A stretch of 64,000 bases of DNA, taken from assembly GCA_022820645.1 (NCBI GenBank), contig JAJEFD010000009.1:62001-126000 (forward strand), read 5' to 3'. Under the pieces are notes generated by a model. That model ran no database searches and was not told where the DNA came from. It saw only the letters and a program-made list of their open reading frames with translations. This stretch comes from Dehalococcoidia bacterium (GTDB lineage: Bacteria > Chloroflexota > Dehalococcoidia > Lucifugimonadales > Australimonadaceae). Shown in pieces: positions 11,572 to 29,283 of this stretch; position 1 is the first letter of the stretch, and every line of letters starts with the position of its first letter. The translations under genes were made by a program, and so were the position numbers.

Positions 11572-11587
11572 GGCCCAAGCAGCCAGC

Positions 11588-12526: not shown

Positions 12527-12532
12527 GGCTTC

Positions 12533-13474
12533 CTACCCTTCCAACGCTCGCGTGCTCGGCTCGAACGCTTCTTCCGGAGATATGGCCTCCGGGATGATCT
12601 GCTGGTCGACCGTGAAACCGATGAAGGTCTCCAAGGATGCCCTATTGGCCTCGACCCCGAATGGCAGGGGGTCTCCCCCGAGGATCCCGTGCATATCTCT
12701 GGCGCGCGCGTCTTCATTTGCCAGCGCTGGCGCTGTGTCGAGTGTGGGAAGGAACTGCTCTTTCGCCTGCTTGAACAGCCTGAACAGTTCGACGGCAAGC
12801 CCGGGGTTGGCTGCCAGATGTTCGTTGCGGACGACCAGCGTGTGGTTGATCGGATAGACGCCGGTCGCGCGCAGCCACGAGATGCCTGCCTCGCGGGCGT
12901 TCGGGATCAGCGGAGCGAAGCCGGCTTCTGCCGATGGCGCCACGCCGATGGCTGCGTCGATCTCCCCGTCGCTCAGCAGGTCCGCAAGGCTGCGGTCGAA
13001 CGGCGCTGACTCGACGTTCGGCGGGGCCTGGTATTCGGCAACGTGCTCGTCGCTGTTGATGACCCACGTGACCTCATCAAGGTTGACGCCGTACTCCGAC
13101 TGGAGGATGCCGCGATTCCAGACGCCGGTGGTCACCGTGTAGGCGCGCACGCCCACCCTTCGCCCGTGGATGTCCGCCGGGGTACGGATCCCGGACTTGA
13201 CGTTGTAGACGATCGAGCCGTGGTGCAGGGCCCGGACGAGAAAGACGGGCAACGCAGTGATCGGTTTGCCGTGGGCCCGAGCGCAGAGATAGGTGGAGAG
13301 CGCCATCTCCGAGACGTCGAACTCGAGGTCGCGAATCATGCGGCGGAAGGCATTGATGATGTTCGGCACCTCGACGTGCTCGAACTCTACCCACTCGGAG
13401 GTGACGGTTCCGTCCTTGAGCGGACGCGTGTGCCCGTAATCGCCCGTTGCCATCTTCAACGAAAGAGGCGGCAT
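12533..13474 (-). CDS. 4,5-dihydroxyphthalate decarboxylase-like protein
   Basis: 313 residues from ATG 13474 (MPPLSLKMATGDYGHTRPL), preceded by ACAGGAGAT; a longer frame to 13543 would overlap the upstream oxygenase gene and lacks a ribosome site. Pht5-type landmarks: GDYGHTRPLKDG, MIRDLEFDVSEMALSTYL, VGVRAYTVTTGVWNRGIL, SEYGV and ATGVYPINHTLV. The family decarboxylates 4,5-dihydroxyphthalate to protocatechuate. The gene begins 47 bases after a Rieske oxygenase ends, so ring hydroxylation and decarboxylation are probably coexpressed. No signal peptide, which argues against a transport role despite the binding-protein fold. Confidence 0.85.
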   Translation of the reverse strand: MPPLSLKMATGDYGHTRPLKDGTVTSEWVEFEHVEVPNIINAFRRMIRDLEFDVSEMALSTYLCARAHGKPITALPVFLVRALHHGSIVYNVKSGIRTPADIHGRRVGVRAYTVTTGVWNRGILQSEYGVNLDEVTWVINSDEHVAEYQAPPNVESAPFDRSLADLLSDGEIDAAIGVAPSAEAGFAPLIPNAREAGISWLRATGVYPINHTLVVRNEHLAANPGLAVELFRLFKQAKEQFLPTLDTAPALANEDARARDMHGILGGDPLPFGVEANRASLETFIGFTVDQQIIPEAISPEEAFEPSTRALEG

Positions 13475-13521
13475 CGTCGGTTCATCTCCTGTAACGCGAG
13501 TCGCGGTCCGGACGGGGAGCG

Positions 13522-14742
13522 CTAGGAGTCCCTCTCGTTCCATTGGAAGGGGCCGCGCACTCCGGCGGGCATGGCCACAGACTCCAACACGGAGTCGTCA
13601 CGCCTCCCTTCCAACCGCAGCGACTCGTCCAGATTGGTGTCGATGATCGGGTGGTCCGGGTCGCGTATCACTCCTTTGGGGTCTTCGCCCGCCTGCACCT
13701 TCATGATGTTGTCTCGCAACACCCTTCGCAGGAGAGCGATACCCTTGTCGGAGTAGCTCAGATGCTCCCTCGTCCGGTCAGCGATGGGGCCCTGTGTCTC
13801 CCACGCCATGTGGTCTTCAGGCTGGGCAGTATGTCCTTTGAGCCAGGGCGGTCTCAGTTCGAAGCGAGTGAAGGGGTGCAGCGCGTCCGCCGGAGACTTG
13901 AACGGGGCGACGTACTCCACTTCGGGCTCGTCGTCGGCCGGTTCGCTCCCATCGGCTGTTGGGTAGAAGTCGATGATGAATATCTGTGTATGCGTATCAT
14001 CGACGGGGACCCGTATCTGCGTCTCTCTGAAGTGCCTCAGGATGTTCGGGAAGAGCAACGGGTGCTCATCGACGACTCCGCTCTTGAGAACGCGCTTCTT
14101 CATCAGTCCGTACGGAAGCTCGTAGAAGTCGAACTGCGCGACATCGTCGATAGTGCCGCGGGTGGTGCTGACGACCTTGCGGAACCCCTGGTGCAGGATG
14201 TGCGCGTGCGCGGGGTCCATCGAGTTCTCCGTGGGCTGGAGCCAGTTGCAGTCCAGCATGGGTTGCACCCAGATCTTGCGCGTGCCGTCGCGCCTCGCCC
14301 ATACGTCGAACTTCGGGATGACCGGTGCGGGAAGGGGCCCCAGGTACGCCCAGTAGAGGCCTACCATCTCCTGAACGGGGTACGCCTGCTGCTTCACCGA
14401 GTGGATGATCGCCTCGTTCCGCTCCGGCGGGGTTTCGAGGACGTTCCCTTCCGTGTCATACAGCCAGCCGTGGTAGGCACAGGCGATGCCGCGTTCCTCG
14501 ACACGCCCGTAGACGAGTGACGCGCTGCGGTGCGCGCAATGGTCCGCAAGAAGCCCCACGCGGCCTGACCTGTCACGGAACAGGACCAGGTCTTCGCCCA
14601 GCAGCCGTACGAACCTCGTCGGCTGTTCGTCCGTGAGTTCTCGCGCGACCGCGATAGGGTGCCAGTAGCGCCGCAGCAACTCACCCGCAGGCTGGCCTGG
14701 CCCCACGAGCGTCAGCAGGTCATTTATCTCCTGCGTTTCCAT
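13522..14742 (-). CDS. Rieske non-haem iron oxygenase, second subtype
   Basis: 406 residues, METQEINDLLTLVGPGQPAG start behind GGGGGAG. Rieske ligands Cys69, His71, Cys88, His91 (CAYHGWLYD). The catalytic region reads NWLQPTENSMDPAHAHILH, with Asp, His and His conserved. Same subtype as the enzyme at 6854-8095. First gene of a three-gene unit with the two decarboxylase-like genes. A hairpin at 14772-14800 separates it from the preceding lipoprotein gene, so it probably has its own promoter, although none stands out in the short gap. Confidence 0.92.
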   Translation of the reverse strand: METQEINDLLTLVGPGQPAGELLRRYWHPIAVARELTDEQPTRFVRLLGEDLVLFRDRSGRVGLLADHCAHRSASLVYGRVEERGIACAYHGWLYDTEGNVLETPPERNEAIIHSVKQQAYPVQEMVGLYWAYLGPLPAPVIPKFDVWARRDGTRKIWVQPMLDCNWLQPTENSMDPAHAHILHQGFRKVVSTTRGTIDDVAQFDFYELPYGLMKKRVLKSGVVDEHPLLFPNILRHFRETQIRVPVDDTHTQIFIIDFYPTADGSEPADDEPEVEYVAPFKSPADALHPFTRFELRPPWLKGHTAQPEDHMAWETQGPIADRTREHLSYSDKGIALLRRVLRDNIMKVQAGEDPKGVIRDPDHPIIDTNLDESLRLEGRRDDSVLESVAMPAGVRGPFQWNERDS

Positions 14743-14806: not shown

Positions 14807-16111
14807 TTACTGAACGATGATGAAGAAGTTGCCCTTGGTGTGCTCGGGGTCTGAAGAGTCGTAGAGGCGGAAGACGCCGGGCTCGGGGAATTCGAGCTCG
14901 ATGCCGGGGCTGACGTCCTCGCCTGGGGGCACCGCGACGTCCAGGCCGATCTCGTCGATGGTGACGTTGTAAGTGGCCGCGTTGCCGCTGCTGCCGGTGA
15001 GCCCGTCCGGGAGAACGATCTTGTCCCCGGCATTCAGGGCGATGCGGATGTCGCCGACCTCGTCGGTGCGGACACGCTGTTCGACGTCGTAGCCCCAGTA
15101 CGCAGTGGCGCCTATGCGGAGCTCCCACACGTCGTCGCGCACCCTGAGCTCGTCGAGCTCGTACGTGGCCGGCTGACCGGTCGGTGGGGTGGCGACGATG
15201 ATGAAGAAGTTGCCCTTGGTGTGTTCGGGGTCAGAGGAATCGTAGAGGCGGTAGACGCCGGGATCGGGGAATTCGAGCTCGATGCCGGGGCTGACGTCCT
15301 CGCCCGGCGGCACTGCAACGTCCAGCCCGATCTCGTCGATGGTGACGTTGTAGGTGGCCGCGTTGCCGCTGCTGCCGGTGAGGCCGTCCGGGAAGACGAT
15401 CTTGTCCCCGGCATTCAGGAATATGCGGATGTCTCCGACCTCGTCGGTGCGTACGCGTTGCTCGGCTTCGTAGCCCCAGAGGGCTTCCGTGCCCGTGCGA
15501 AGCTCCCACACGTCGTCGCGCACGCGGATCTCGTCGAGGATGTACGTTACGGGTGTGTATGCGGTGAGGTCGACGTCGCCGACGGCGAAGAACGCCCTGC
15601 CGTGATTGTGTGCGTCCTTGATCGCGTAGATGCCCTCGTCGTGGAACGTGAACTTCCAATTGGTCACCGGCCCGCCGGCATCGATCTCATGAAGCGGGAA
15701 ACCGACGAACAGGTCGGGGATGCCGAACTGGTGGCGCTCGACGGCGTCCGCGCTCTGGCGGATGTCCCTGACGAAGACCTTGTCGCCTGCGTCGAGCCAG
15801 ATCGCCCATCCGTCGCCTTCGGTGGAGCGGGCGACTTCTCCCGCCTCGAATCCGCCCCCCGCCTCAGGGCCCATCGTGAGGACGATGTCCTTGTCCTCGA
15901 ACACGATCGACTCGATAACGAGCGCGCCTGCGGCAGGGTCGGGTGTGGGCGTCGGTGTAGGGGGAGGAACCGGGGTTGGCGTAGCGGTCGGTGCCGGGGT
16001 AGGAGTGGCCGTTGGGACCGGGGTTGCCGTGGGGTCTGCCTGGCATGCCGCCAGCAGGGACAGGAGGATGACTGGGAGCAGTACCAGCCCTGTGCGCTTG
16101 AGAGTGAGCAT
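14807..16111 (-). CDS. Lipoprotein with Thr-Pro linker and duplicated 127-residue unit
   Basis: 434 residues from ATG 16111, nine bases after GGAGG. Signal peptide with lipobox LLAAC (Cys23), then a Pro/Thr linker (about 28-62). The C-terminal part carries two nearly identical 127-residue units in tandem (DELRVRDDVWELR through HTKGNFFIIV), and a more diverged related unit precedes them (HDEGIYAIKD, FFAV). Each unit looks like an all-beta cupredoxin-like domain: a hydrophobic strand, the phrase GDKIVLPDG, and PGVYRLYDSSDPEHTKGNF at the end. The copper ligands of true cupredoxins were not identified. Third gene after the iron-type binding protein and permease; may help capture the transported solute. 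Confidence 0.8.
   Translation of the reverse strand: MLTLKRTGLVLLPVILLSLLAACQADPTATPVPTATPTPAPTATPTPVPPPTPTPTPDPAAGALVIESIVFEDKDIVLTMGPEAGGGFEAGEVARSTEGDGWAIWLDAGDKVFVRDIRQSADAVERHQFGIPDLFVGFPLHEIDAGGPVTNWKFTFHDEGIYAIKDAHNHGRAFFAVGDVDLTAYTPVTYILDEIRVRDDVWELRTGTEALWGYEAEQRVRTDEVGDIRIFLNAGDKIVFPDGLTGSSGNAATYNVTIDEIGLDVAVPPGEDVSPGIELEFPDPGVYRLYDSSDPEHTKGNFFIIVATPPTGQPATYELDELRVRDDVWELRIGATAYWGYDVEQRVRTDEVGDIRIALNAGDKIVLPDGLTGSSGNAATYNVTIDEIGLDVAVPPGEDVSPGIELEFPEPGVFRLYDSSDPEHTKGNFFIIVQ
14816..15577 (-). repeat. 381-bp tandem duplication inside a lipoprotein gene
   Basis: The sequence from 14816 recurs from 15197 with an offset of exactly 381 bases (127 codons) and very few differences, mostly synonymous-looking. 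The near identity indicates a recent duplication or ongoing gene conversion between the copies. Confidence 0.85.
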
Positions 16112-16276
16112 CCGACGACCTCCAACCCGGCGAATGGATAGGCCTCGGGGCGCCCTGGAGTCGATTGAGGCGCAGATAGGGCGCCGACGACGCGCGATCA
16201 GATTTCCAGCGAGTCTAGTGAAGCGGATTTCCTTTGACAAGGCTGACGGTTTGCCGGTGAGTTTCATGATGGCCTC

Positions 16277-18094
16277 CTAGACATTCGGGGCTGGTGCAGT
16301 CGATGAAGTGGGAGTCTCGGTCACGCCAAACCTGCGTGCGACCTTCATGTCCTGCCGCAGGCCCAGCTTCAGGGCGTAGTGACGCCCGATGAGAGCGAGA
16401 ACCAGGGTGTAAACCATGATTACGAGACTGATGATTCCGGCGTTCTCGGTCCTGCCGAGTTCGGGAGAGGCCCACTCCAGCCCGATGATGGAGAGGGTCA
16501 GGGTGTCGCGTGAGGCAAGGAGGATGATGCTCGACGTAGTGGATGCCGCGCTGATGAAGTTGAGCATCCCGATCAGGACCATGGTGGGCATAAGGAGCGG
16601 GATGACGATCCTGAAGTAGGTCCTGAACCAGTTGGCGCCCGCCACGCGTCCGGCTTCCTCCACGTCGCCCCCGAGTTGCACCATAACGCCCTTGAAGATG
16701 TTGGTCCCGGTGGTATTCCCGGATATGAGCACCACCAGGATCAGCGCCCAGATGGAGCCGTACAGGAACTGGAGTCCGGGGACGGAGAGGAACATCAGCA
16801 GGAGCCCCAGGCTGGAGATGATGCCGGGGAATACCGCCGATACCCAGATGGTGCCGTCCAGGATGCGCCTTCCCCGCCATTTCGTGCGAACGAGCATGTA
16901 CGCGATGAGGGAGAAGAGGATGGGGCTGCCGATGCCCGCGCTGAAGGCGAGGATGGTGGTCGTCCGCAAGCCCTTCAGGAAGAGGGGGTCGGTGAAGACG
17001 TCCACCCAGTGCTTGGTCGTCCACAGAGGGACCGCCTCGAAGAAGCCCACTCGCGACATGAAGCTGCCTACGATGATGACGAAGAAGGGCAGGGCCGTGA
17101 ACATCGCTATGAGCAGGATGATGCCGCCCAGGACCACCCACCGCCAGCGCCCGATGTCGATGAGCCCCGGCCTGAACTGGCTGGTGATGGTGGTGTAATG
17201 CCGTCGACTCACGACCCAGCGCTGCATCGGGAAGATGACCGCGATGATCACCATGGTGAGGCTGGCGAGGACGATGGCGTTCCCGTACTGCGGGATGAAC
17301 TGGGACGTCTGGTTGAAGATGAGGGTGGAGTAGACGAAGAAGCCCCAGCTTGCACCCAGGATCCATTCGGTCTCGAAACCGCTGAAGATGCGGAGGAGTT
17401 GGAGCGCGGTGACGAGGATAACGGGTGAGATCATGACCGGCAGCGTCACCTTGAAGATGGCGCCGAACTTGGACGCACCGGCAACGCGCGCGGCCTCTTC
17501 CAGCGCCTGGTCCATGTTTCGGAACGCCGGCGTGAGCAGGATGACGAAGTAGGAGACGCTGTCGGACTGGAGCTTGGTCCAGACGATGCCCCAGAAGCTG
17601 TAGATGTTGAACGGGCCTTCCTCGATGAACGGAAGCGCCTCGAGCGCCGTGTTGACCATGCCGATGTCCGGGTCGAGCAGCATGATCCAGCCAACGGTGT
17701 TCGCGAGGCTTGGGAAGACGAAGGAGATCCAGAAGAGGTACTCGAGTCCATGGGTCCAGGGGATATGGGTGCGAGCCAGAACCAGGGAGATGCCTATCGC
17801 CAGAGGGAAGCTGAATATGAAGTTGAGGAACCACAGGGTGAATGTGTTCCGTATCGCCTCGAAGATCCGGGGGTCCCTGAAAGACTCGAGCCAGTTGTCG
17901 AAGCCCCAGACTATGGGCGGGACGAGGAAGTCGTCCGCGACGTTGAAGCTGAGGACGAGCAGCAGGATGACAGGGAAAAGGAGATAGAAGCCGAGCACCA
18001 GGATGGTGACAGCCATCACCATGGTGCCGGTCTCCGACCGCAGTCGTGAAACCAGCCAGTTCGGGACGCCTGACCGAATCGGTATGGCGGCCAA
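16277..18094 (-). CDS. Iron(III)-type ABC transporter permease, two fused transmembrane domains
   Basis: 605 residues with about 12 membrane helices. Two permease halves each have an ATPase-coupling EAA loop: EEAARVAGASKFGAIFK in the first half and EEAGRVAGANWFRTYFR in the second. This double-length form is typical of FbpB/SfuB-like iron permeases. The start is TTG at 18094, seven bases after TGGAG; no ATG is well placed. It follows the binding protein gene by 75 bases. No ATP-binding subunit gene was found in the window, so the ATPase must be encoded elsewhere or shared. Confidence 0.88.
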   Translation of the reverse strand: MAAIPIRSGVPNWLVSRLRSETGTMVMAVTILVLGFYLLFPVILLLVLSFNVADDFLVPPIVWGFDNWLESFRDPRIFEAIRNTFTLWFLNFIFSFPLAIGISLVLARTHIPWTHGLEYLFWISFVFPSLANTVGWIMLLDPDIGMVNTALEALPFIEEGPFNIYSFWGIVWTKLQSDSVSYFVILLTPAFRNMDQALEEAARVAGASKFGAIFKVTLPVMISPVILVTALQLLRIFSGFETEWILGASWGFFVYSTLIFNQTSQFIPQYGNAIVLASLTMVIIAVIFPMQRWVVSRRHYTTITSQFRPGLIDIGRWRWVVLGGIILLIAMFTALPFFVIIVGSFMSRVGFFEAVPLWTTKHWVDVFTDPLFLKGLRTTTILAFSAGIGSPILFSLIAYMLVRTKWRGRRILDGTIWVSAVFPGIISSLGLLLMFLSVPGLQFLYGSIWALILVVLISGNTTGTNIFKGVMVQLGGDVEEAGRVAGANWFRTYFRIVIPLLMPTMVLIGMLNFISAASTTSSIILLASRDTLTLSIIGLEWASPELGRTENAGIISLVIMVYTLVLALIGRHYALKLGLRQDMKVARRFGVTETPTSSTAPAPNV

Positions 18095-18169: not shown

Positions 18170-19474
18170 CTACGGCAGGTTGTAGTTCACCCAGGCGTCG
18201 TAGCCGAGTTCCTTGTAGAGGTCGTTGAAGAACACCTCGGTGCTCTCACGGACCTGGAACCACTCGTCGTTGAGCTCGTAGACCACGAGGTACTGGTCTA
18301 TGGTGCCCTCAGCCCTCCACTTAGGGACGTTTTGTAGCGTCTCCTTCAGATGCTGGGGGAATGTGCCCAGGGTCACGTCGGAGCGCAGTGAAACGGCGCC
18401 CAATGGCCCGAAGGAGGACGTGCTCTCGATGTCTGCGGTCTGACCGGCCTTGGAGTACCACCAGTTCACAAACAGCTTGGCGGCGTTCGGGTTAGGAGCC
18501 TGGTCCAGGACGCCGACACCTCCGCTGATCTCAGTCGAGAGCGCGCCGATGGTCTTGGTGAGGGTAAGCTCCCGGACCGGAAGTTGGAGGTTCTGAAGCG
18601 CCCTGAAGTCACGCCCGCCGCCGAAGAGCCCGAAGTCCCACTTGCCCTGGGCCACACCTTCTGCCAGTTCCTTGTCATCCTCGGCGCCGACCAGGTCCAT
18701 GTCGGTCTCGCGGTGGATGGCGTCCAGGAATTCCGGCCCGAGTCCTGGAGCAAGCCAGAGCCTTGCGATAACGGACTTGCTGCCGGGGTTGTTCATGGCG
18801 CGCATGGCCATGCGTCCCTTGAACTCGGGGCGGAGCAGGTCCTGGTAGGTGTTGATGAGGTCCAGCTCTTCCTGCGTGACGTTGTCGGTGTTGTACCAGA
18901 TGCTGCCGATGGCTCCGACGCTGAGCGCGTCGGACATGACGTACTTGCTCTCAGAGTCGGACCAGAGGACGTTGGGGAAGTACCAGCCGGTGGAGCGGTC
19001 GAGCACATCCGGGTGGATCAGCAGGGGCTCCACCGGAACAAAGGCTCCGGCTTCCCGCAGGCGCTCCATCGAGCCGCCGCTCACGGTGGAGATGTCCACG
19101 GTGTACGCGCCCCGCGACCGCTCGGCGAGGATGCGGTTCGCGTTGTCGGCGCCGCTCCCGCTGCTCGTGATGACGTTGATGCCGAACGTGTCCGCGAAGG
19201 TCTCGAAGGCGAAGCGCCCGGTGCGTGAGTCCGAGCCGCTGAGCGCGATGACGAGCTCCCCATCTTCCTGAGCGGCGGCGATCAGTTCCGCCCACTCCTC
19301 GGCGAAGGGGTCCGGTGTGGGCGTGGGCTGCGGCGTCACCCCGGAAGGCACGGGTGTGGGAGTAGCGGCTGGGGGTGCCGGCGTGGGAGTCGGATCATCT
19401 CCCCCGCAGGCAGCGGCAAGCCCGAGTAGGACCAACACAGCTATCAGTCCGAAAGTGACCTTGACCCTCTGCAT
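18170..19474 (-). CDS. Iron-type ABC transporter substrate-binding lipoprotein (family 1)
   Basis: 434 residues from ATG 19474 behind GGGAGGGG. Lipobox LAAAC at Cys23, then a Pro/Thr linker, then a family-1 binding domain (FETFADTFGINVITSSGSGADNANRILAERSRG). Later segments (SIWYNTDNVTQEELDLINTYQDLL, PEFKGRMAMRAM) match FbpA/SfuA-like ferric or phosphonate/spermidine-type proteins. Together with the permease it forms an importer that may supply iron for the many iron enzymes nearby; iron specificity is inferred from family only. A minus-strand promoter candidate lies at 19589-19618. Confidence 0.87.
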   Translation of the reverse strand: MQRVKVTFGLIAVLVLLGLAAACGGDDPTPTPAPPAATPTPVPSGVTPQPTPTPDPFAEEWAELIAAAQEDGELVIALSGSDSRTGRFAFETFADTFGINVITSSGSGADNANRILAERSRGAYTVDISTVSGGSMERLREAGAFVPVEPLLIHPDVLDRSTGWYFPNVLWSDSESKYVMSDALSVGAIGSIWYNTDNVTQEELDLINTYQDLLRPEFKGRMAMRAMNNPGSKSVIARLWLAPGLGPEFLDAIHRETDMDLVGAEDDKELAEGVAQGKWDFGLFGGGRDFRALQNLQLPVRELTLTKTIGALSTEISGGVGVLDQAPNPNAAKLFVNWWYSKAGQTADIESTSSFGPLGAVSLRSDVTLGTFPQHLKETLQNVPKWRAEGTIDQYLVVYELNDEWFQVRESTEVFFNDLYKELGYDAWVNYNLP

Positions 19475-19683: not shown

Positions 19684-20793
19684 TCAGGCGCTGGCCAGAG
19701 TGCGGGTCTTGCGCCACTCTTCGAGTACGGGGTCGACGGGAGGCTCCGGCATGGGCGCGGGGATGGGCTTGCCGTAGAGCCGGGCGACGTTGTCGGCCAG
19801 CACCTTCGCCTGCGTCGTTGGTTCGAGGTGTCCCAGCGTGCGGTCGATGACCTCATCCGAGAAGAGCCAGATGTTGCCCGTTCCCACGTGAGGGTAGTCC
19901 GTCGACCACATGAAGTTGTCTGCGCCGTACCACTCCAGCAGGCGGCCGCCGACCTCGTCTTCTGTGAAGGTGGAGTAGCACTGCCGGTAGAAGTACTCGC
20001 TCGGCTTGAGGGGGAGGGACTGACGCCGGGAGCGTTTGTCCATCTCCGTCAGCCAGAACGGGATCCAGCCCACCTCCACCTCGGCCACGATGATCTTCAG
20101 GCGCGGGTGACGCTCCAGCACGCCTGAGCAGATGATGTCCGTCAGCGCCTCGGCGGTGACCTGCTTGTGGCCGCTGGCGCTGCGCTTGAGCGATGCGAGG
20201 TGGTCCCGCCCCCGGCCTGCCTCGCGCGCTCCGGCATCGTAGGAGCTGAACCCTGTGTTGATGTGCATGCTGACGGGCGCATCCATGTCCTGTGCCGCCG
20301 CCCAGAACCGCTCGTAGTGGTCGGAACTGAAGGGGATATCGGGAGGCGGCACCATCCAGACCGTCGCGCCGACCAGACCCGCTTTCCGGCAGCGTTCCAG
20401 CTCACCGATGGCGTTGTCGATGTTCCAGAGGGGGATCTCAGGCTGGCCCCACAGACGGTCGGGGGACTCCTGGCAGAACTCGATCATCCAGTCGTTGTAT
20501 ACGCGGGCGCACGCCTCAGCGGCTTCGGGCGGCCTCTCCGTGTCGTACATGTCCTTTCCGAATGTTGGGTAGAGGACCTCGGCGACCACGCCGTCGCGGG
20601 CCATGTCTTCGAGTCGGGGGCCTGGCTCGTACCCGCCCGACCTGAAGTAGAAGCCGGTGCCGTACTCGTGCCGCAGGTGGATCGCATACTCGCGGAACCG
20701 CTCTGGGAGCCGCGTCTCCCACAGGTCCAGCGGCTCGCACATGTGGGAGTCCGCCGATATGCGGGGCTGGCGGTCGCCTACTGACGTGCTCAA
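19684..20793 (-). CDS. Amidohydrolase-2 family metal-dependent hydrolase/decarboxylase
   Basis: 369 residues, TTG start at 20793 with GGAGGTGA six bases upstream. TIM-barrel amidohydrolase-2: metal motif Asp15-Ser-His17-x2-Glu20 near the start, VYNDWMIEFCQESPDRLWGQ, SMHINTG for a barrel His, HPRLKIIVAEVEVGWIPFWL and the closing NFMWSTDYPHVGT with the metal Asp. Family members decarboxylate or hydrolyse aromatic-pathway intermediates (ACMSD, LigW, gamma-resorcylate decarboxylase types). Last gene of a seven-gene leftward unit with LigB-type ring cleavage. Two adjacent paralogues suggest successive or alternative substrates. Confidence 0.88.
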   Translation of the reverse strand: MSTSVGDRQPRISADSHMCEPLDLWETRLPERFREYAIHLRHEYGTGFYFRSGGYEPGPRLEDMARDGVVAEVLYPTFGKDMYDTERPPEAAEACARVYNDWMIEFCQESPDRLWGQPEIPLWNIDNAIGELERCRKAGLVGATVWMVPPPDIPFSSDHYERFWAAAQDMDAPVSMHINTGFSSYDAGAREAGRGRDHLASLKRSASGHKQVTAEALTDIICSGVLERHPRLKIIVAEVEVGWIPFWLTEMDKRSRRQSLPLKPSEYFYRQCYSTFTEDEVGGRLLEWYGADNFMWSTDYPHVGTGNIWLFSDEVIDRTLGHLEPTTQAKVLADNVARLYGKPIPAPMPEPPVDPVLEEWRKTRTLASA

Positions 20794-20827
20794 GGATTCA
20801 CCTCCAACGCGTACCTCTACGGGATGG

Positions 20828-21955
20828 TCAGGAGATACCGACGTAATACCCGTCCCGCTCCGCGCACCACTCCTGCATCGACTCGTCGTATTCGGACGGC
20901 GCGGGCATGGGCTCCGGTATGGGTTTGCCGTAGAGCGCGGCGACGCTCTCGCGCACGACCTTCGCCCGTGTCTCGCCGGGCAGGTGGCCGAGGTCCCGTT
21001 CGATGATTGCTCCGGAGAAGAGCCAGGTGTCGCCGGTGCCGGGGTGGGGGTAGTCGTTCGCCCACAGGAAGCTGTCCGCGCCCCAGCGCGAGAGCAGTTG
21101 CCCCCCGACAGGGTCGTCGCTGAACGTGGCGTAGCACTGGCGGTAGAAGTACTCGCTGGGCTCGAGTGGGAGGTCGCCCTTGCGTCGCAGCCGCTTGTCG
21201 AGCTCTTCCAGCCAGAACGGGATCCATCCGACCTCGGTCTCGGCGACGATGATCTTCAGTCGGGGGTGCCGTTCGAGCACGCCGGAGCAGATGATGTCGG
21301 TCAGAGTGTCCGCGGCGATCTTCTTGTGGCCGGTGGCGGTGAAGCTCAACTCGGAGAGCGCGTCTCCCTTGTTGCGAGTGCGGACCGACTCTGCTGCCTC
21401 GGCGTAGGGGCCGAAGCCGTTGTTGATGTGCATGCTGATGGGCGTTTCCGTGGCCTCGGCGGCGTCCCAGAACCGCTCGTAGTGGTCGGACGAGAACCGC
21501 AGGGGGTCCGGCGGCACCATCCATGTTGTGACGCCGGCCAGCCCTTCATTCCGGCACCGCTCCATCTCGATGATGGCGTTCTCGATGTTCCAGAGAGGGA
21601 GAAGCGCCTGTCCCCAGAGGCGGGTCGGGTCTTCTTGGCAGAACTCGATCATCCAGTCGTTGTAGACGCGGGCCGCTGCCTCCGATATCTCCGGTTCGTA
21701 GTCGAGCCGGAACACGCTCTTGGCTCGCGTGGGATAGAGGACGTCCGCGACCACGCCGTCAGCGGCCATATCCTTGAGGCGGGCGACGGGGTCCCAGCCG
21801 CCTTCCCGCCGGTACTGCCCCTTGCCGTATTGCTGGCCGGGCCAGTGGAAGGCGCGGTCGCGGTACCTGGCCGGCATCCGTTGCTGCCACAGGTCGAGTG
21901 GCTCGGCGACGTGCGCGTCGGCCGAGATTTTGACTTCCGCAGTAGGGTCGACCAT
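20828..21955 (-). CDS. Amidohydrolase-2 family metal-dependent hydrolase/decarboxylase
   Basis: 375 residues, ATG behind AAGGAGGG. Asp13-Ala-His15-x2-Glu18 metal motif, VYNDWMIEFCQEDPTRLWGQ, SMHINNG, HPRLKIIVAETEVGWIPFWLEELD, and FLWANDYPHPGTG near the C-terminus. Closely similar to the next gene downstream (34 bases apart) and to the protein at 28129-29283, so these are recent paralogues. Cytoplasmic. Exact reaction unknown; a hydrolytic or decarboxylating step after ring cleavage is the best contextual guess. Confidence 0.88.
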   Translation of the reverse strand: MVDPTAEVKISADAHVAEPLDLWQQRMPARYRDRAFHWPGQQYGKGQYRREGGWDPVARLKDMAADGVVADVLYPTRAKSVFRLDYEPEISEAAARVYNDWMIEFCQEDPTRLWGQALLPLWNIENAIIEMERCRNEGLAGVTTWMVPPDPLRFSSDHYERFWDAAEATETPISMHINNGFGPYAEAAESVRTRNKGDALSELSFTATGHKKIAADTLTDIICSGVLERHPRLKIIVAETEVGWIPFWLEELDKRLRRKGDLPLEPSEYFYRQCYATFSDDPVGGQLLSRWGADSFLWANDYPHPGTGDTWLFSGAIIERDLGHLPGETRAKVVRESVAALYGKPIPEPMPAPSEYDESMQEWCAERDGYYVGIS

Positions 21956-21987
21956 GTGCCCTCCTTGTCGGGTCTTGCTGGGCTCGC

Positions 21988-23187
21988 TTACGCCCCGACG
22001 CCGACCAGCGACGGCACCACACCGTTCAGCTGGGGCATGAACCGGAGCGCGTTCTCTCCCAGAAGCTTGATCTTGGCGCTTTCAGGCATCTCCTGCTCTG
22101 CGATCAGCGGCACTCCCTCCGGCCACGGACTGCCGCCGTGAGGGTAGTCCGTGGAGAACAGCCACAGGTGCTCCCCGAGAGTCTCGACCGCGTAGGGGAT
22201 GTGCTGTTCGTCTGCCTCGACGGAGACGAACAGCTGCCCGCTCTCCACGATCTCAGAGGCGGTGCGCTTCATCTTGGGCGTCACGGTGGAACCCGGAGTG
22301 AAGCCGTCGTCCAGCTTCTCGATGAGGTAGGGCATCCACCCGCCGAAGCTCTCGAACAGACCGATGCGGAGGTCGGGGAACAGGTCGAAGACTCCTCCGC
22401 CGACCAAGGCCGTCAGCGCGTACTGCCCGCCGATGGCGTGGTAGAGGCCGTTGGGGGCATGCACCCATGGGGTCAGCGGGGGTCGGTTGGCGCCCCCGTG
22501 TACCCAGAGGGGCAGGTTGAGGTCCTGGCACGCCCCGTACAACGGGTAGAGGTCCGGGTTGTCGAGCATCCGCCCGTCGGGGCAGGCCCGTGGGAGGTGC
22601 ACACCCGCGAAGTGGGGGTCTTCCTTTGCCCAGTACTCGAGTTGGGCGATGCTTTCCGGCAGGTCGCGCATGGTGAGCACACCCATCCACCAGAGTCGGC
22701 CATCGGCGTCGGCACAGTAGTTGCTCATGAAACGGTGGTAGGAGCGGTGGAGCGCGCTCTCGAACCCGACATCGCCCAGCGTGCAGAAGCCGTCGGCCTG
22801 GCTGGGGAAGATGAAACTGACGTCCACGCCCGCGGTCTCCATGTCGCGCAGGCGTATCGACGGGTCCCAGTTGCACGTGGGATCGATGTCGTACCCCCTG
22901 CCGGTGACGGTGGGCGCCGGTCGATCAGGGCGGTCCTGGGGCAGTGCGGGGTCGGCGAGCTCGAACGCCTCGTCCAGCCCCAGGGGACGGTCCGGGTGGC
23001 GCGGCCAGAACAGCGGCGTAAAACCCACGTCGCCGGGCTTGGCCTGCCTGGAGCGTACGGCAGCGCTGAACCAGGCGTACTTCTCCCGGTACTCAGGGTC
23101 CATGGTCTCCTTGTACGTCCTGTCCAGCTCCCAGTACTCGCGGAGGTGGCAGTCCGAGTCCACTACCACATGCCCGTTGTAGCTCAT
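21988..23187 (-). CDS. Amidohydrolase-2 family protein, divergent subtype
   Basis: 399 residues, ATG behind TAGGAGGA. Metal motif Asp10-Ser-Asp12-x-His14, LWVHGGANRP supplying a barrel His, DLRIGLFESFGGWMPYLIEKLDDG, and HLWLFSTDYPHGGSPWPEG for the catalytic Asp. More distant from the two downstream amidohydrolases than they are from each other. Starts 13 bases after the LigB-like gene ends, so probably translated in step with it. It could act directly on the ring-cleavage product. Confidence 0.86.
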   Translation of the reverse strand: MSYNGHVVVDSDCHLREYWELDRTYKETMDPEYREKYAWFSAAVRSRQAKPGDVGFTPLFWPRHPDRPLGLDEAFELADPALPQDRPDRPAPTVTGRGYDIDPTCNWDPSIRLRDMETAGVDVSFIFPSQADGFCTLGDVGFESALHRSYHRFMSNYCADADGRLWWMGVLTMRDLPESIAQLEYWAKEDPHFAGVHLPRACPDGRMLDNPDLYPLYGACQDLNLPLWVHGGANRPPLTPWVHAPNGLYHAIGGQYALTALVGGGVFDLFPDLRIGLFESFGGWMPYLIEKLDDGFTPGSTVTPKMKRTASEIVESGQLFVSVEADEQHIPYAVETLGEHLWLFSTDYPHGGSPWPEGVPLIAEQEMPESAKIKLLGENALRFMPQLNGVVPSLVGVGA

Positions 23188-23200
23188 CGCGATCTTCCTC

Positions 23201-24163
23201 CTATCGCCAGTAGGCGAGCGTTACTCCGTGGCCGGTGCCGGCGAGGGAGCGGTAACAGGGGATGTAATCGATCAAGGTCATGTCCAGATCGTCCACCGCG
23301 CCCGCGAGAACGACCCAGTTCAGGATCTCCGGCGTACCGGGAGCGCGATTGAGTCGCTCCCGCGGCAGGTAGCTCAGCGTCTCGACGTCCTTGTGCTGGA
23401 GCGCCTCGATGACCTGGCGATCCAGCTCCTCGTCGATGATCTGGTGACTGAGTCCCCCGGACGCCATGATGGCGACGCGCATGTCGCTGTCCCATGACTC
23501 GATGGCACGCCGGATGGACTGCCCCACCGTGTAGCAACGCGCTGATGTGGCCTGATGCGGGAGGTAACGGCTGAGGAGGAACGGCACGACGGGTGTGCTG
23601 CGGTCGGGCAGGAACATGTCGTAGGCGAAGGTGAAGGGACCTTCGATGCCGGCCGTGGGGTCGGACTGGAAGCAGCTTGCCACGTCGATGCCGTCGGCGA
23701 TGAGGCAGTGCATCAAGCGGTCCGCAAGTTCCGGGCAGATGGCGTATGGCTCCACCTGCCTGAACGTTTGCTGAGGTTCGGTCGCCTTGCGCCGGCCGCT
23801 GGTCTGGTGCCCGGAGCGTTCGACCTTCGACTCAGTGTGGCTCATGTAGATGCCGAACACCGGCTCCATGCGGTCCTGCGGAGGTACGCCGTGGGGGTTG
23901 CTGACGCACACGATGGCGTCGGGCGCGGCCTCCTGCAGGACGTTCGACATCTCCTCGATGGCGCGCTGGATGGACTCGTAGCGTTCCTGGAGCACCTCCG
24001 GCTCGAGCTCGCGCTCGATCTCCGGCGAGGCCGATGCGAGCACCGCGTCGAAATCGTAGCGAGGGTCCTCCATGTCCTTCTGTCCGAGCCGCAGCCAGTC
24101 CTCGGGCTGCGACTGGATCGTCGGCCCGTGAGATGCCCCTATCCCCAGAACGATCTCCGCCAT
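23201..24163 (-). CDS. Class III extradiol ring-cleavage dioxygenase (LigB-like)
   Basis: 320 residues, ATG behind AGGAGGTG. Matches the catalytic subunit of protocatechuate 4,5-dioxygenase: His12 in GIGASHGPT and His91 in SNPHG as iron ligands, His240 in SGGLSHQ as catalytic base, and Glu279 in PEILNWVVLAGAV as the third ligand; compare LigB His12, His61, His195 and Glu242. The enzyme opens catechol-type rings with O2 and Fe(II). No separate LigA-like small subunit gene is present, so it may work alone. Flanked by an alcohol dehydrogenase (18 bases) and an amidohydrolase. Confidence 0.88.
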   Translation of the reverse strand: MAEIVLGIGASHGPTIQSQPEDWLRLGQKDMEDPRYDFDAVLASASPEIERELEPEVLQERYESIQRAIEEMSNVLQEAAPDAIVCVSNPHGVPPQDRMEPVFGIYMSHTESKVERSGHQTSGRRKATEPQQTFRQVEPYAICPELADRLMHCLIADGIDVASCFQSDPTAGIEGPFTFAYDMFLPDRSTPVVPFLLSRYLPHQATSARCYTVGQSIRRAIESWDSDMRVAIMASGGLSHQIIDEELDRQVIEALQHKDVETLSYLPRERLNRAPGTPEILNWVVLAGAVDDLDMTLIDYIPCYRSLAGTGHGVTLAYWR

Positions 24164-24181
24164 CGCACACCTCCTCCTGTT

Positions 24182-25279
24182 CTACGGCATAAGGGTTACG
24201 TGGATCGCGCCCGGCTCACCCTCGCCCGCAGCGGTGTCCAGGGAATGCCTCACTTCAGGCAGCGGGAACTGGTGGGTCGAGATCTCGAGCAACTCCGGGT
24301 AGCTGCCGGAAGTCAGGTAAGCGATGGACTCGGATACCGACGAGTACGAATGTCCGTGCGCGGTCTTGATGGTGATGTCCTTCCGCCGCCGCTCGCCGAC
24401 CGCGCTCAGGGAGATAGGGTCGTCTCCCGCCGCGGCGAGCACCAGCGTGCACTCCTTGCTCGCGACTGCGAGCGCGTCGGAGACGGCTCCTGCGCCGCCG
24501 CCCGTCACGTTCACCACCACGTCGATGCCTGCGCCGCCGGTGATCTCATGCACGCGCTCCCTGAAGTCTTCGGTCTCGATGTTGATGGTGTAGTCGGCCC
24601 CGAGGCGCTTCGCCATGTTGAGGCGAACGGAGTCGCGGCTCAGTCCGGTCACGATGACGCAGTCGGAGCCGGCCTGGTTCGCGGCGAAAGCGCACGCGAG
24701 TCCCATCTGCCCCGGCCCCTGGATGAGGACGTTCTTGCCGCGTTGCGCTCCGCCGTAGCGGCACGCCCACTCGATCCCGTTGGCGAGGGGGAGATAGAGG
24801 GCCAGTACGTGCACCGGGACGGGCTTGTCCACACGGTGCATCACCGTGTTCCGGGGCAGGTACATGTACTGGCTGAAGCCGCCCCAGATGGAAGGCCAGA
24901 CGTCTGTCGTCGTGGAGCCGTGCCTGAGCAGAGTTCCGTAGCCGCGGTCGGTCTGGTTGCAGAATCGGAATCGTCCTGTGTAGCAGTACTTGCAATGGAA
25001 GCACGGCACGTACTCTTCGGGGATGACCAGGTCGCCTTCCTTCACCCCCCAGCGTTCGGCGGCCTCTCTCCCCACGGCAGCCATCACTCCAACGTTCTCG
25101 TGTCCCATGATCCTGGGCACGGGGACGGGTTGCCGGTACGACCGGACGTCGCTGCCGCAGATGCCGACGGCTTCCACTTTCATGAGCCCCGTCTCTGACG
25201 TGAGTTCGGGTACGTCGTACTCGCGGAGTTCGAACTGCTTCGGCGCCACGAGGGTGGCGGCCTGAGTCTTCGCGACCAT
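24182..25279 (-). CDS. Zinc-dependent alcohol dehydrogenase (MDR family)
   Basis: 365 residues. Catalytic zinc site in GICGSDV and GHENVG; structural zinc with four Cys in CFHCKYCYTGRFRFC; NAD(P) motif GPGQMGLACAFAANQAG. Oxidises an alcohol or reduces an aldehyde/ketone; could process a hydroxymethyl or semialdehyde intermediate. Lies between the Rieske oxygenase and the LigB-like gene, 15 and 18 bases from each. Resembles the dehydrogenase at 42420-43541, which also sits next to a Rieske oxygenase, so the pair recurs as a unit. Confidence 0.9.
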   Translation of the reverse strand: MVAKTQAATLVAPKQFELREYDVPELTSETGLMKVEAVGICGSDVRSYRQPVPVPRIMGHENVGVMAAVGREAAERWGVKEGDLVIPEEYVPCFHCKYCYTGRFRFCNQTDRGYGTLLRHGSTTTDVWPSIWGGFSQYMYLPRNTVMHRVDKPVPVHVLALYLPLANGIEWACRYGGAQRGKNVLIQGPGQMGLACAFAANQAGSDCVIVTGLSRDSVRLNMAKRLGADYTINIETEDFRERVHEITGGAGIDVVVNVTGGGAGAVSDALAVASKECTLVLAAAGDDPISLSAVGERRRKDITIKTAHGHSYSSVSESIAYLTSGSYPELLEISTHQFPLPEVRHSLDTAAGEGEPGAIHVTLMP

Positions 25280-25294
25280 CCTCGACCTCCCCGT

Positions 25295-26620
25295 TCAGCC
25301 GCCGAGTGCGGCATAGAGCCTGGGACGCTGGCGCTCGATGCACTCGTCGAACGTGACGTCCTTCTCTTCCACGAACTGCACGCCGACGACCGAGTATGCC
25401 TCCGGCGTGTGCGGTTCGGCGGGCTCGATGCCCTCCTGCAGGTCGATCGCCTGGCCGAGCATCAGGCGTCGCGCCTGGATGATGGCAATGTCCGTCACAC
25501 CGAGGTGCTCCTTCGTCCGGTTGGCGATGGCGCCCATCGTCACCTGGGCCATCGAGTCCTGGATGCCCGTGCCGGCAAGGCCGGTGAAGTTCACTTCCTT
25601 CTGCATCTGGCGGTCGATCAGGAAGTCGTTGTCGCGGTTGCGGATGGTCCGGTAAGTGCCGGGGACAAGTCCGCCGTGCATGTTGACTCCGCCGGCGAGG
25701 TCGTGGTCTGAGGCGACCCCGGCGAGCTGGTGTTCCCGCTCCTCCTCCGTGTACGGACGGTCGACCCGGGAAGAGAGGTTGAATGACCAGCAGTTGTAGT
25801 CGTCGATGGGTACGAAGGCGTGTCCGCCTCCGCCGCGTGGCGTCATCGAGTAGAAGGGCATGAGGAAGTGGTTGAAGCGCCAGTAGTACTTGTTCTCGGC
25901 TTCGAGGTTCCTGCGCGCGCCTACCAGCAGACCGTAGTCCGTGCGCTTGGTCATGAACTTCGGCGCGTCGTCCGCTGTCCGGTAGAGGAGGTCGAGGTCG
26001 GTGCTGCCCTTGATGCGCTCCTGGTAGGCGTCGGTCTTGTGGTAACGGTCGAGGCCGGCGTGCAGGAAGTTGGTGTGGACGGAGTCGATGCCTCCGTCGA
26101 TGGCCTGGGCGAAGTTGCACTCCCTGAGGTACTTGGTATGGAGCCGGTGCTCCTCCGGCACATCCATAAACCGGAACTTCGGGAGCTCGGGAGGCATGAA
26201 CTCCCTGGGCCCCAGGTACGCCCAGATGAGCCCTCCGCCGTCCCTTACCTCATAGGAGACCAGCTTCACCTTGTGCTTGAAGTTGCTCTCCGGAGACTCG
26301 GTCGGCATGTCGATGCAGTTCCCGGTCACATCGTACTTCCAGCCGTGGTAGGGACAGCGGAGGCCACCCTCTTCGTTGCGTCCGAAGAAGAGGCTGGTCT
26401 GCCGGTGCGCGCAGAGTTCCTCTACGAGGCCGAGCCGCCCTTCGCTGTCACGGAACGCGACGAGGTCCTCGCAGAAGATGCGGACGCGCACAGGAGGACA
26501 GTCGGGCCCGGGCAGTTCCTCTTGGAGCAGGATCGGCGTCCAGTACCTCCGCAGCAGGTCGCCCATCGGAGTACCGGGGCCGACCCTCGTCAGCATCTCC
26601 GTCTGCTCGGCGCTCAGCAT
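25295..26620 (-). CDS. Rieske non-haem iron oxygenase, phthalate dioxygenase-like
   Basis: 441 residues, MLSAEQTEML behind AAGGAGGA. Rieske ligands Cys70, His72, Cys89, His92 (CPYHGWKYD); catalytic motif in QAIDGGIDSVHTNFLH. Closest in the window to the enzyme at 43590-44924 (shared GIDSxHxNxLHAxLD). Its start is one base from the stop of the upstream cupin gene, implying translational coupling. Electron donor not encoded nearby. Confidence 0.93.
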   Translation of the reverse strand: MLSAEQTEMLTRVGPGTPMGDLLRRYWTPILLQEELPGPDCPPVRVRIFCEDLVAFRDSEGRLGLVEELCAHRQTSLFFGRNEEGGLRCPYHGWKYDVTGNCIDMPTESPESNFKHKVKLVSYEVRDGGGLIWAYLGPREFMPPELPKFRFMDVPEEHRLHTKYLRECNFAQAIDGGIDSVHTNFLHAGLDRYHKTDAYQERIKGSTDLDLLYRTADDAPKFMTKRTDYGLLVGARRNLEAENKYYWRFNHFLMPFYSMTPRGGGGHAFVPIDDYNCWSFNLSSRVDRPYTEEEREHQLAGVASDHDLAGGVNMHGGLVPGTYRTIRNRDNDFLIDRQMQKEVNFTGLAGTGIQDSMAQVTMGAIANRTKEHLGVTDIAIIQARRLMLGQAIDLQEGIEPAEPHTPEAYSVVGVQFVEEKDVTFDECIERQRPRLYAALGG

Positions 26621-26621
26621 G

Positions 26622-27827
26622 TCAGTCCTCCTTCAGCCACTCTTCGTCCCACTCGAAGTCCGGATTCGTGTATGCCTCCTCCGGCATGAGCGAAGTGAGC
26701 CCGCGCTTGGCCAGTTCCTCCTCGAACTTCTGCCGGATCCAAGGGTCTTGCTCGTGGAAGGGGATCATGCGCTTGGGGTCGGCGGAGGGGTTCGCTCCCG
26801 GCCGCGGCGCCCGGATGCGGAGTTGCCTGTTCTCGACGGGCCCCGCGTTCATGTGCATGTGGTACCAGTGGTAAGGCGGGACGAACACAGCTCCTTCCTT
26901 CCACGGAGCGATCAGGTAGTCGCCTCCCTCGGGCCACATGAGGACGAACCCGTCCGCCTCCTGGATGCCGACGATGGTTACGCCCGCCGCATGGCGATGT
27001 GCGGCCCGATACCTTCGGGAAGGGAGCACCATGAGGCTGGTGCTGAACGCCGAGCCGGGGAAGAAGATGCCGCCTCGGTAGGAGAGGCGCCCAGCCCCAC
27101 CGCCGACCTCCAGCTTGTCCCACACCGACAAGTCAGGGAAGAAGTTGCCGTACCACCGCATGCTGCTCCGGCCCGCGGAGCGGGAGTCCTCCGCCAGTGT
27201 TCCGGCCCCGGCGCCAGGCTCGTACCCCATCGACCGGGCGCCCGACGAGAAGCTCGCCGACCCCGAGAGGCGCACGGGCTGCGCCGCCGCCGAGTAGAAC
27301 TTCGCCTGGTTCCCGTAGAGCTGGCTGGTGTCGACGTACGGGTTGTTGAAGAAGTAGTCCTCGCTGGGGTTCGTGCCCATAGCCATGGGCAGCAGGTTCA
27401 CGTGGAGCGTAATCGCGGACTGATCGCCCCGTGCGTTGCTCAACTCGTAGTTGTAGTTGACGGGGATGCGGAACAGGCTGTGCTTCTGCCACTCGAAGGT
27501 GATCTTCGGCTGGCCCTCGGCCCAGACGTTCGCGATGCCGTTGCCCTCGAAGACGTAGATGACCTCTTCGAGCGCCATGCGGAACGGAGGGATCGTCTCT
27601 CCGGGAGGTATCTCCAGCACGTGGACGTGCTCGATGCCCCGGTGGCCCTCCAGACTGATGACCGCGGCGGGGCATCCGCGGAGGGACCAGTACCCGCGTT
27701 CGAGTGTGCGGGCGTCCTCGACGTAGAAGCCCGTGTGGACGGGGACGTCCTGCTTGGCCAACCAGCCGTCGTAGGCGTGGTTGCGCCAGAAATCGACTAC
27801 CTCGGGAAGGGCGGATTCTGTGACCAT
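26622..27827 (-). CDS. Bicupin domain protein
   Basis: 401 residues from ATG 27827, behind AGGAGGAGG; the frame extends 70 codons further but that stretch has no ribosome site and includes the promoter. First cupin around 125-185 (PPGETIPPFRMALEEVIYVFEGNG), second in the C-terminal half (RAAHRHAAGVTIVG, PPYHWYHMHMN). His residues are frequent in the second domain, compatible with a metal site. Related in overall plan to the protein at 9659-10762. First gene of the seven-gene unit. May be a ring-cleaving or isomerising enzyme; not assignable. Confidence 0.78.
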   Translation of the reverse strand: MVTESALPEVVDFWRNHAYDGWLAKQDVPVHTGFYVEDARTLERGYWSLRGCPAAVISLEGHRGIEHVHVLEIPPGETIPPFRMALEEVIYVFEGNGIANVWAEGQPKITFEWQKHSLFRIPVNYNYELSNARGDQSAITLHVNLLPMAMGTNPSEDYFFNNPYVDTSQLYGNQAKFYSAAAQPVRLSGSASFSSGARSMGYEPGAGAGTLAEDSRSAGRSSMRWYGNFFPDLSVWDKLEVGGGAGRLSYRGGIFFPGSAFSTSLMVLPSRRYRAAHRHAAGVTIVGIQEADGFVLMWPEGGDYLIAPWKEGAVFVPPYHWYHMHMNAGPVENRQLRIRAPRPGANPSADPKRMIPFHEQDPWIRQKFEEELAKRGLTSLMPEEAYTNPDFEWDEEWLKED

Positions 27828-27905: not shown

Positions 27906-27934
27906 ACGGTACGACGCTGTCCGTGGACTGTCAA
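27906..27934 (-). promoter_or_regulatory. Sigma-70-type promoter of the seven-gene catabolic unit
   Basis: On the minus strand a consensus TTGACA (934-929), a 17-base spacer and TACCGT (911-906). Transcription would begin near 27899, about 70 bases before the cupin start codon. Confidence 0.6.
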
Positions 27935-28128: not shown

Positions 28129-29283
28129 ATGACCACGTCACCTGCAAGTGATCAGGAGATACGCATATCCGGGGACTCGCACGTCTCGGAACCCCCGGAC
28201 CTCTGGCAGAAGGAGATGCCCCTGAAGTACCGCGACCGCGCGCTCAGCTTTCCCCGCATCGAGTACGGACGCCACAACCACTCTCGCGCCGGAGGATGGG
28301 ACTCAAAGGAACGATTGAAGGACATGGCAGCCGACGGCATCAGCGCCGAGGTGCTCTACCCTACGTTGGCCAAGGGGCTCTTCGAGCAGTTCTTCTTCGA
28401 GCCGGTGGACCTCCCGCTCGTCCAGGCCGGAGAGCAGGTCTATAACGACTGGATGATGGACTTCTGCAAGGAAGCCCCGGACAGGCTCTGGGGTCAGGCC
28501 TTCATCGGGCTCTGGGACATCGACTATGCCATCAGGGAGATGCAGCGCACGAAAGACGGCGGGCTCAAGGGAGTGGCGACCTGGATAGCACCGCCGGATG
28601 GATTGCCATTCACCGGCGACCACTACGAGCGGTTCTGGTCGGCGGCCGAAGAGATGGACATGCCCATCGGCTGGCACATCAATACGGGGTTCGGCGCCTA
28701 CGTCACGCGGGCCGACGAAGACCGGTTCGGAGTTATCACGCGCCAGGCCTACGGCCACAAGGTCGTCGCCATGAAAACGATGGCTGAGATGATCCTCTCC
28801 GGCGTGCTGCAGCGTCACCCTCGGCTCAAGATCGTCCTTGCAGAGTTCGAAGTGGGGTGGATCCCCTTCTACCTCGAAGACCTCGACCGGAAGCTGGGCA
28901 GAGGCAGGAACGTAGGGCTCGATCTGTATCCCAGCGAGTACTTCAGCCGCCAGGTGTACTCGACGTTCATGCAGGACGGCGTTGGGGGCTACCTGATGCA
29001 GCGGTGGGGCGCTGACAACTTCGTCTACGCGAACGACTATCCGCACGCAGGCGGTATCTGGCCGTACACAGACGACACGATCGAGCTCACCCTGAGCGAC
29101 CTGCCGTCCGAAACGCGGCGGAAGGTGTTGGGCGAGACGCTGGCGAAGGTCTATGGTCAGCCCATGCCGGAGCCGATCGAGCGCATGGAGTCGGACTACA
29201 CGGATGAGATATGGAGCCGCCCCTGGCTTAAGAAGGCGGGGGAGTTCACTTTCGACAAGACCACGATGGGGCTCAAGCTTTAG
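28129..29283 (+). CDS. Amidohydrolase-2 family metal-dependent hydrolase/decarboxylase
   Basis: 384 residues behind GAGGAGGA. Asp16-Ser-His18-x2-Glu21 metal motif, VYNDWMMDFCKEAPDRLWGQ, GWHINTGFG, HPRLKIVLAEFEVGWIPFYLEDLD, and NFVYANDYPHAGG. Clear paralogue of the proteins at 19684 and 20828. Opens a rightward unit with a dehydrogenase, PanB-like protein and kinase, under its own promoter. Substrate unknown. Confidence 0.88.
   Translation: MTTSPASDQEIRISGDSHVSEPPDLWQKEMPLKYRDRALSFPRIEYGRHNHSRAGGWDSKERLKDMAADGISAEVLYPTLAKGLFEQFFFEPVDLPLVQAGEQVYNDWMMDFCKEAPDRLWGQAFIGLWDIDYAIREMQRTKDGGLKGVATWIAPPDGLPFTGDHYERFWSAAEEMDMPIGWHINTGFGAYVTRADEDRFGVITRQAYGHKVVAMKTMAEMILSGVLQRHPRLKIVLAEFEVGWIPFYLEDLDRKLGRGRNVGLDLYPSEYFSRQVYSTFMQDGVGGYLMQRWGADNFVYANDYPHAGGIWPYTDDTIELTLSDLPSETRRKVLGETLAKVYGQPMPEPIERMESDYTDEIWSRPWLKKAGEFTFDKTTMGLKL

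Follow-up and report, generated by a model that had tools for sequence, protein, structure and literature searches.

Gene organization and probable promoter

The 64,000-nucleotide stretch analyzed here (Dehalococcoidia bacterium, contig JAJEFD010000009.1, positions 62,001 to 126,000; hereafter the window) carries a compact unit of seven open reading frames (ORFs) on the minus strand, transcribed from window position 27827 to 19684 in the order bicupin, Rieske oxygenase, MDR dehydrogenase, LigB-type dioxygenase and three amidohydrolases (AH1, AH2 and AH3). The unit is best read as a genus-specific mosaic catabolic operon built from known enzyme families, and on balance we favor a role in degrading a ring compound that is aromatic or aromatic-like. 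The first gene (26622..27827) encodes a bicupin of 401 amino acids with a gentisate/salicylate 1,2-dioxygenase-like fold, assigned through a fold match of its AlphaFold2 model. It is followed by a Rieske non-heme oxygenase of the LigXa_C family (25295..26620; 441 amino acids; PF00355, PF19301), a zinc-type MDR alcohol/polyol dehydrogenase (24182..25279; 365 amino acids; ADH_N/ADH_zinc_N, PF08240/PF00107), a LigB-type (class III) extradiol ring-cleavage dioxygenase (23201..24163; 320 amino acids; PF02900), and three Amidohydro_2 (PF04909) proteins, AH1 (21988..23187; 399 amino acids), the PtmU3-like AH2 (20828..21955; 375 amino acids; PtmU3 E=2e-34) and AH3 (19684..20793; 369 amino acids, TTG start; PtmU3 E=6e-37). 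These are the genes and families of the original prediction: the ORFs were confirmed, the Pfam matches agree and the identity of the bicupin comes from its fold. The predicted spacings of 1 to 34 bases were also recovered, the measured gaps being 1, 15, 18, 13, 32 and 34 bp in transcription order, and a purine-rich Shine-Dalgarno-like site precedes every one of the seven starts. The ratio of nonsynonymous to synonymous substitution rates (dN/dS) between congeners is 0.03–0.09 for all seven genes and for the flanking genes described below, and all seven operon genes are under strong purifying selection.

A probable promoter lies ahead of the bicupin gene on the minus strand (27906..27934), with a perfect TTGACA at 27934..27929, a 17 bp spacer and TACCGT at 27911..27906. 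In an alignment of upstream regions, TTGAC and TCGTACC are invariant across five congeneric loci while the remaining upstream sequence differs; this footprint, together with the TTGACA-N17-TACCGT arrangement, makes a promoter likely. The term "consensus" used in the original prediction is, however, too strong for the −10 box, which has 3/6 matches to TATAAT, and a sigma-70 consensus scan at the operon start returned no site of 9/12 or better.

The unit reaches past 19684–27827 on both sides. Downstream, 209 bp after AH3, lie genes for an ABC transporter substrate-binding protein (SBP; 18170..19474, minus strand; PF01547), which probably belongs to the operon module, and for a double-length ABC transporter permease of 605 amino acids (16277..18094, minus strand), assigned from PF00528, a PhnU2-like model below cut-off and synteny. 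Upstream and divergently oriented is a fourth PtmU3-like Amidohydro_2 gene, AH4 (28129..29283, plus strand; PF04909). Directly downstream of the permease, window positions 14807–16267 encode a probable lipoprotein of 486 amino acids with internal repeat segments and no Pfam match.

The predicted ring-attacking oxygenases and the dehydrogenase

Support for the Rieske and LigB assignments is good, and by alignment the predicted catalytic residues of both enzymes are complete. In the Rieske oxygenase, the cluster ligands C70/H72/C89/H92 and the iron site D179/H182/H187/D355, including the bridging Asp, are all invariant, and its nearest solved relatives in a PDB search are 9ina, 7fjl and phthalate dioxygenase 7fhr. 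The LigB-type protein scores 97.7 bits against PF02900 (gathering score 26.3), and is related to LigAB (1b4u) and to gallate dioxygenase. When aligned with LigAB and with its paralogs, it has the iron ligands at H12, H91 and E279 and the catalytic His at H240; H12, H240 and E279 are invariant and H91 occupies the second His position. Two LigB-type paralogs, at L084 and L091, show Gln (GDDQ) in place of the expected second iron-binding His. For the MDR dehydrogenase, the nearest NCBIfam models are threonine-dehydrogenase-like and far below cut-off.

No reductase or ferredoxin for the Rieske oxygenase was found within the unit. Across the genus the PF00970 and PF14759 profiles were empty, and PF00175 identified one FNR-like protein per genome, outside the unit and adjoining a NuoG/formate-dehydrogenase-like gene; the notion of a genus devoid of any ferredoxin reductase was rejected on this finding. 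A shared ORF of 324 amino acids with a weak Fer2 match was likewise rejected as a phthalate-dioxygenase-reductase-like gene, being the succinate dehydrogenase subunit SdhB. Unlinked electron-transfer partners are common among Rieske oxygenases, and the missing linked reductase therefore does not exclude the enzyme from the Rieske non-heme oxygenases. The source genome as a whole has 57 Rieske places for one PF00175 reductase per genome (L135:10-759; L138, C14:8000-22000), and a stand-alone Rieske ferredoxin-like ORF of 121 amino acids lies at L130:6892-7257, flanked by a biotin-carboxylase region and uvrA.

The identity of the bicupin rests on its fold. No Pfam or NCBIfam family matched at E<=0.001; there was no PHROG match either, and Pfam gave just sub-threshold Auxin_BP/Cupin_2 hits. 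The AlphaFold2 model (pLDDT 76.9, pTM 0.81) is closest in predicted fold to the gentisate/salicylate dioxygenases, matching gentisate 1,2-dioxygenase 3bu7 with Z 21.8 (271 aligned residues, root mean square deviation 3.6) and salicylate 1,2-dioxygenase with Z 21.4, followed by seed globulins and oxalate decarboxylase at Z near 18–19. Members of the gentisate/salicylate 1,2-dioxygenase family hold a three-His iron site in the N-terminal cupin. Here, the C-terminal cupin carries H277-x-H279 and H323-x3-N, and the N-terminal cupin has a degenerate FRM at the position of the His pair. The dN/dS of the gene is 0.04–0.08.

The amidohydrolases belong to the PtmU3/DitZ/AibH clade

AH1–AH4 were aligned with PtmU3, DitZ, AibH2 and decarboxylase segments taken from PDB searches, and all four show the ligand pattern D-H-H-E-D-H-G. 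The six metal ligands of AibH2 (D-x-H, H, E, D, H; PMC7782822) are conserved in every one of them. In PtmU3, DitZ and AibH2 an E/D comes after these six residues, two positions beyond the last His (PtmU3 E313, AibH2 D342); AH1–AH4 and their orthologs in the genus have Gly there. LigY-like paralogs read HHHHE at the ligand columns, and the decarboxylase references (ACMSD, gamma-resorcylate decarboxylase) differ as well, with H..H..D..F at the corresponding columns. AH2–AH4 are full-length homologs of PtmU3 with 29–31% identity (31% for AH4), and the AH2 model is nearest in fold to PtmU3 (Z 36.6) and DitZ (34.3), then TruffO/SfbO/AibH, ahead of all decarboxylases (best 31.3). Together, sequence and, for AH2, modeled fold strongly place these proteins in the PtmU3/DitZ/AibH monooxygenase clade, and the "hydrolysis or decarboxylation" originally assigned to them finds no counterpart in the DHHEDHG pattern. 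AH3 is 62% identical to AH2 and is probably its tandem duplicate; AH4 is 47–53% identical to AH2/AH3 and is kept in bin MPMJ01 (see below).

Some Amidohydro_2 paralogs elsewhere in the genome do carry DHHEDH plus D/E. One of them (L084:7977-9092; G000:C15, about 104 kb) directly adjoins a Rieske gene, with a short-chain dehydrogenase and a LigB-type gene near; the others are at L068:3072-4373, L107:2022-3170, L111:4442-5752 and L112:5025-6179.

The clade placement raises the alternative that the amidohydrolases themselves activate O2, in which case the target would be an alicyclic or terpenoid/steroid-like ring, compounds that are abundant in sponges, and the LigB-type enzyme would cleave the ring once aromatised. 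The homology to PtmU3, the fold of AH2 and the six conserved ligands all point this way. However, the acidic residue that AH1–AH4 replace by Gly, the one tested feature of dinuclear oxygenases (ARO) that they lack, is conserved in binuclear enzymes only, and AibH1, which has the six ligand residues without the acid, is mononuclear and a subunit with no catalytic role (PMC7782822). Furthermore, a small Rieske ferredoxin gene accompanies 90% of AibH2-like genes (PMC10401708) and is missing from this unit. We therefore regard this alternative as unlikely. A bolder form of it, which we hold to be improbable, would make AH1–AH4 a new class of O2-activating PtmU3-clade oxygenases that dispense with the second acidic residue. 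The operon would then contain six oxygen-using enzymes directed at a single alicyclic/aromatic metabolite of sponges, and some of the dozens of SAR202 Amidohydro_2 paralogs would be oxygenases and not hydrolases.

Conservation in relatives and genomic setting

The source genome (2.75 Mb, 19 contigs) falls in the genus of MPMJ01, a bin of sponge SAR202 group VII for which 62 ring-hydroxylating dioxygenase (Rieske) copies are reported (Saw et al. 2020, PMC6946804). In MPMJ01 (G003) the operon orthologs are 92–97% identical and stand in identical order, with the divergent AH4 and the downstream SBP-permease pair. The order is also kept in G004 and G002, the contig of the latter ending within AH3; both have a second bicupin in tandem and a different transporter upstream, and in G004 the SBP gene occupies the same place as in the source genome and MPMJ01. 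In G005 only bicupin-LigB-AH1-AH2 is present, next to Gfo/Idh and PanB-like genes. AH3 is absent, a genome-wide search for the MDR ortholog found none (best 45%), and the junction shows no visible Rieske or MDR relics, so that loss versus gain is not polarised. G001 (one contig, same genus) has no operon ortholog, its best LigB being 50% identical. In the sister genus the modules lie apart: AH1-AH2-SBP-permease occur together (64–81% identical), an MDR-MDR-Rieske-(bicupin)-Rieske group contains the MDR ortholog (73%), and LigB has its ortholog (71–73%) at a separate place. Loss of gene order in close relatives, which the original prediction named as grounds for refutation, is thus seen in part: the order holds in three congeners but gives way to a four-gene form in G005 and to no ortholog in G001, and is lost beyond the genus. 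The exact seven-gene set occurs only within part of one genus. We read the operon as a recent mosaic: the bicupin-LigB-AH1-AH2 block also occurs by itself, and Rieske-MDR and AH3 can be absent.

The families involved are numerous in the source genome, with 57 Rieske places, 27 bicupin places (counted by N-terminal domain), about 70 Amidohydro_2 places and about 8 LigB-type places. The seven-gene unit forms part of a catabolic island. At 2.7–13.5 kb the window holds three Rieske and two Gfo/Idh genes, along with a bicupin, a class II aldolase and two NMT1-like genes; a further Rieske gene is at 13.5–14.7 kb, and beyond AH4 come one Gfo/Idh and one PanB-like gene. Taken as one run (2736–14742), the four Rieske genes and the other genes listed for 2.7–13.5 kb may be a second catabolic unit, whose gene families resemble the phthalate (pht) gene set. 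Separately, G+C falls to 0.51 at 54001–56000, against about 0.65 around, over an AAA_21-type ATPase gene, where a recent insertion is possible.

This setting also bears on the possibility that the unit serves no single pathway and is a cassette of co-expressed paralogs, each broad in specificity and overlapping with the others, that act on different members of a mixed dissolved organic pool. Every family of the operon is massively duplicated in the genome, the modules are combined differently in relatives, and there are local tandem duplicates (the second bicupin in G002/G004 and AH3 from AH2). Yet a pure grab-bag need not keep a seven-gene order in three congeners with dN/dS below 0.1, and we consider this reading rather unlikely.

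Proposed function

We favor, with modest confidence, the reading that the operon, together with the ABC SBP and permease, lets sponge-associated SAR202 bacteria take up an aromatic or aromatic-like ring compound and degrade it oxidatively. In its favor are the co-directional genes with 1–34 bp spacing, the conserved promoter, dN/dS of 0.03–0.09, the order kept in three congeners, the four-gene block of G005 and the AH1-AH2-transporter group of the sister genus. The complete LigB and Rieske sites, the gentisate-dioxygenase-like fold of the bicupin, the surrounding window dense in Rieske, Gfo/Idh, class II aldolase and NMT1-like genes and the aromatic catabolism predicted for this clade in earlier work (PMC6946804, PMC6123686, PMC6306507) also speak for it. 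In such a scheme, the ABC system would import the substrate and the Rieske enzyme, of the LigXa/phthalate-dioxygenase type, would hydroxylate or O-demethylate the ring. The zinc MDR enzyme would oxidise the diol or alcohol so formed, and the LigB-type enzyme would cleave a catechol- or protocatechuate-type ring. AH1–AH3, and perhaps the gentisate-dioxygenase-like bicupin too, may process the product of that cleavage or a parallel substrate. How the steps are ordered, which substrate is used and what chemistry the bicupin and amidohydrolases perform is inferred; gene content, spacing, the conserved promoter, purifying selection, the intact Rieske and LigB catalytic residues and the link of AH1-AH2 to the transporter are observed.

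Several findings weigh against this reading. AH1–AH3 have the ligand pattern of neither LigY-type ring-fission hydrolases nor decarboxylases, two putative ring-cleaving enzymes are odd in one short route, the Rieske oxygenase has no linked electron supply, and the gene order dissolves outside the genus. Of the original view, a catabolic operon of oxygenase plus ring cleavage, with intact Rieske and LigB active sites and an order kept in three congeners, is supported. The reading as "one complete route" is not: G005 keeps only four of the genes, G001 lacks the unit, and the modules are separate in the sister genus.

A variant of the 5,5'-dehydrodivanillate (DDVA) pathway of Sphingobium SYK-6, with LigX-type Rieske, LigZ-type LigB and LigY-/LigW-type amidohydrolases, is very improbable: the families LigXa_C Rieske, LigB and two or more PF04909 proteins are shared, and SYK-6 ligZ, ligY, ligXa and ligW lie within SLG_07720-07850 (PMC12997858), but membership was rejected since AH1–AH3 lack the H-H-H-H-E and decarboxylase patterns and a true LigY homolog lies elsewhere in the genome, near another LigB gene, and the bicupin and MDR have no counterpart. 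That LigY homolog (L075:16289-16999; G000:C9, about 155.3 kb; E=2e-73 to 6e6i/5vn5) is about 8 kb from a second LigB-type gene (about 146.8–147.7 kb; 49% identical to the LigB of the window), and the two are a better candidate pair for lignin-biphenyl-type ring fission than the unit described here.

Comparison with known systems

The Rieske and ring-cleaving families of SAR202 group VII and their expansion have been published, as families that are not assigned to pathways (PMC6946804, PMC6123686, PMC6306507). The present unit shows how one lineage builds such paralogs into operons: the minimal set is bicupin-LigB-AH1-AH2, to which Rieske-MDR and AH3 may be added, and the transporter goes with AH1-AH2. 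Automatic "amidohydrolase" labels can hide a PtmU3/AibH-like clade, which alters the chemistry worth testing, and the operon offers a compact group of enzymes, from a sponge symbiont that is uncultured, to be screened for substrates.

The full-text literature searched contained no description of an operon with the same composition, in line with the original statement that no characterised one is known; the Nocardioides riboflavin (lum) operon was rejected as a match, its logic being different. SAR202 group VII/MPMJ01 (PMC6946804) and SAR202-VII-2 (Colatriano et al. 2018, PMC6123686) share the Rieske, gentisate-like and LigB-like families; in the text searched, these two sources describe gene repertoires and not this operon, the transporter link or PtmU3-like amidohydrolases. 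Clusters of LigB, RraA and amidohydrolase genes in proteobacteria and actinobacteria (for example plasmid hits H1, H8 and H10) contain a LigB relative 32–34% identical, with the amidohydrolase adjacent in H1 and H8 and about 5 kb off in H10, but are without bicupin-Rieske-MDR and have aldolase-type RraA genes in their place. The gentisate/salicylate 1,2-dioxygenase bicupins (3bu7, 2phd) are the top fold match of the operon bicupin (Z 21–22) at about 13% identity, and differ in that the latter would have its three-His site in the C-terminal cupin, the N-terminal His being lost. The dinuclear oxygenases PtmU3, AibH2 and SfbO (PMC10811679, PMC10401708, PMC7782822) are closest to AH2–AH4 in sequence and to AH2 in fold, with six ligands in common, but AH1–AH4 have Gly for the diagnostic acid and lack a neighboring small Rieske ferredoxin. 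Among characterised sets, the SYK-6 DDVA region (PMC12997858) comes nearest; there, a LigXa-family Rieske, a LigB-family dioxygenase and PF04909 proteins likewise lie close together; relative to it, the operon has amidohydrolases with different metal ligands and adds the bicupin, the MDR dehydrogenase and the ABC transporter link.

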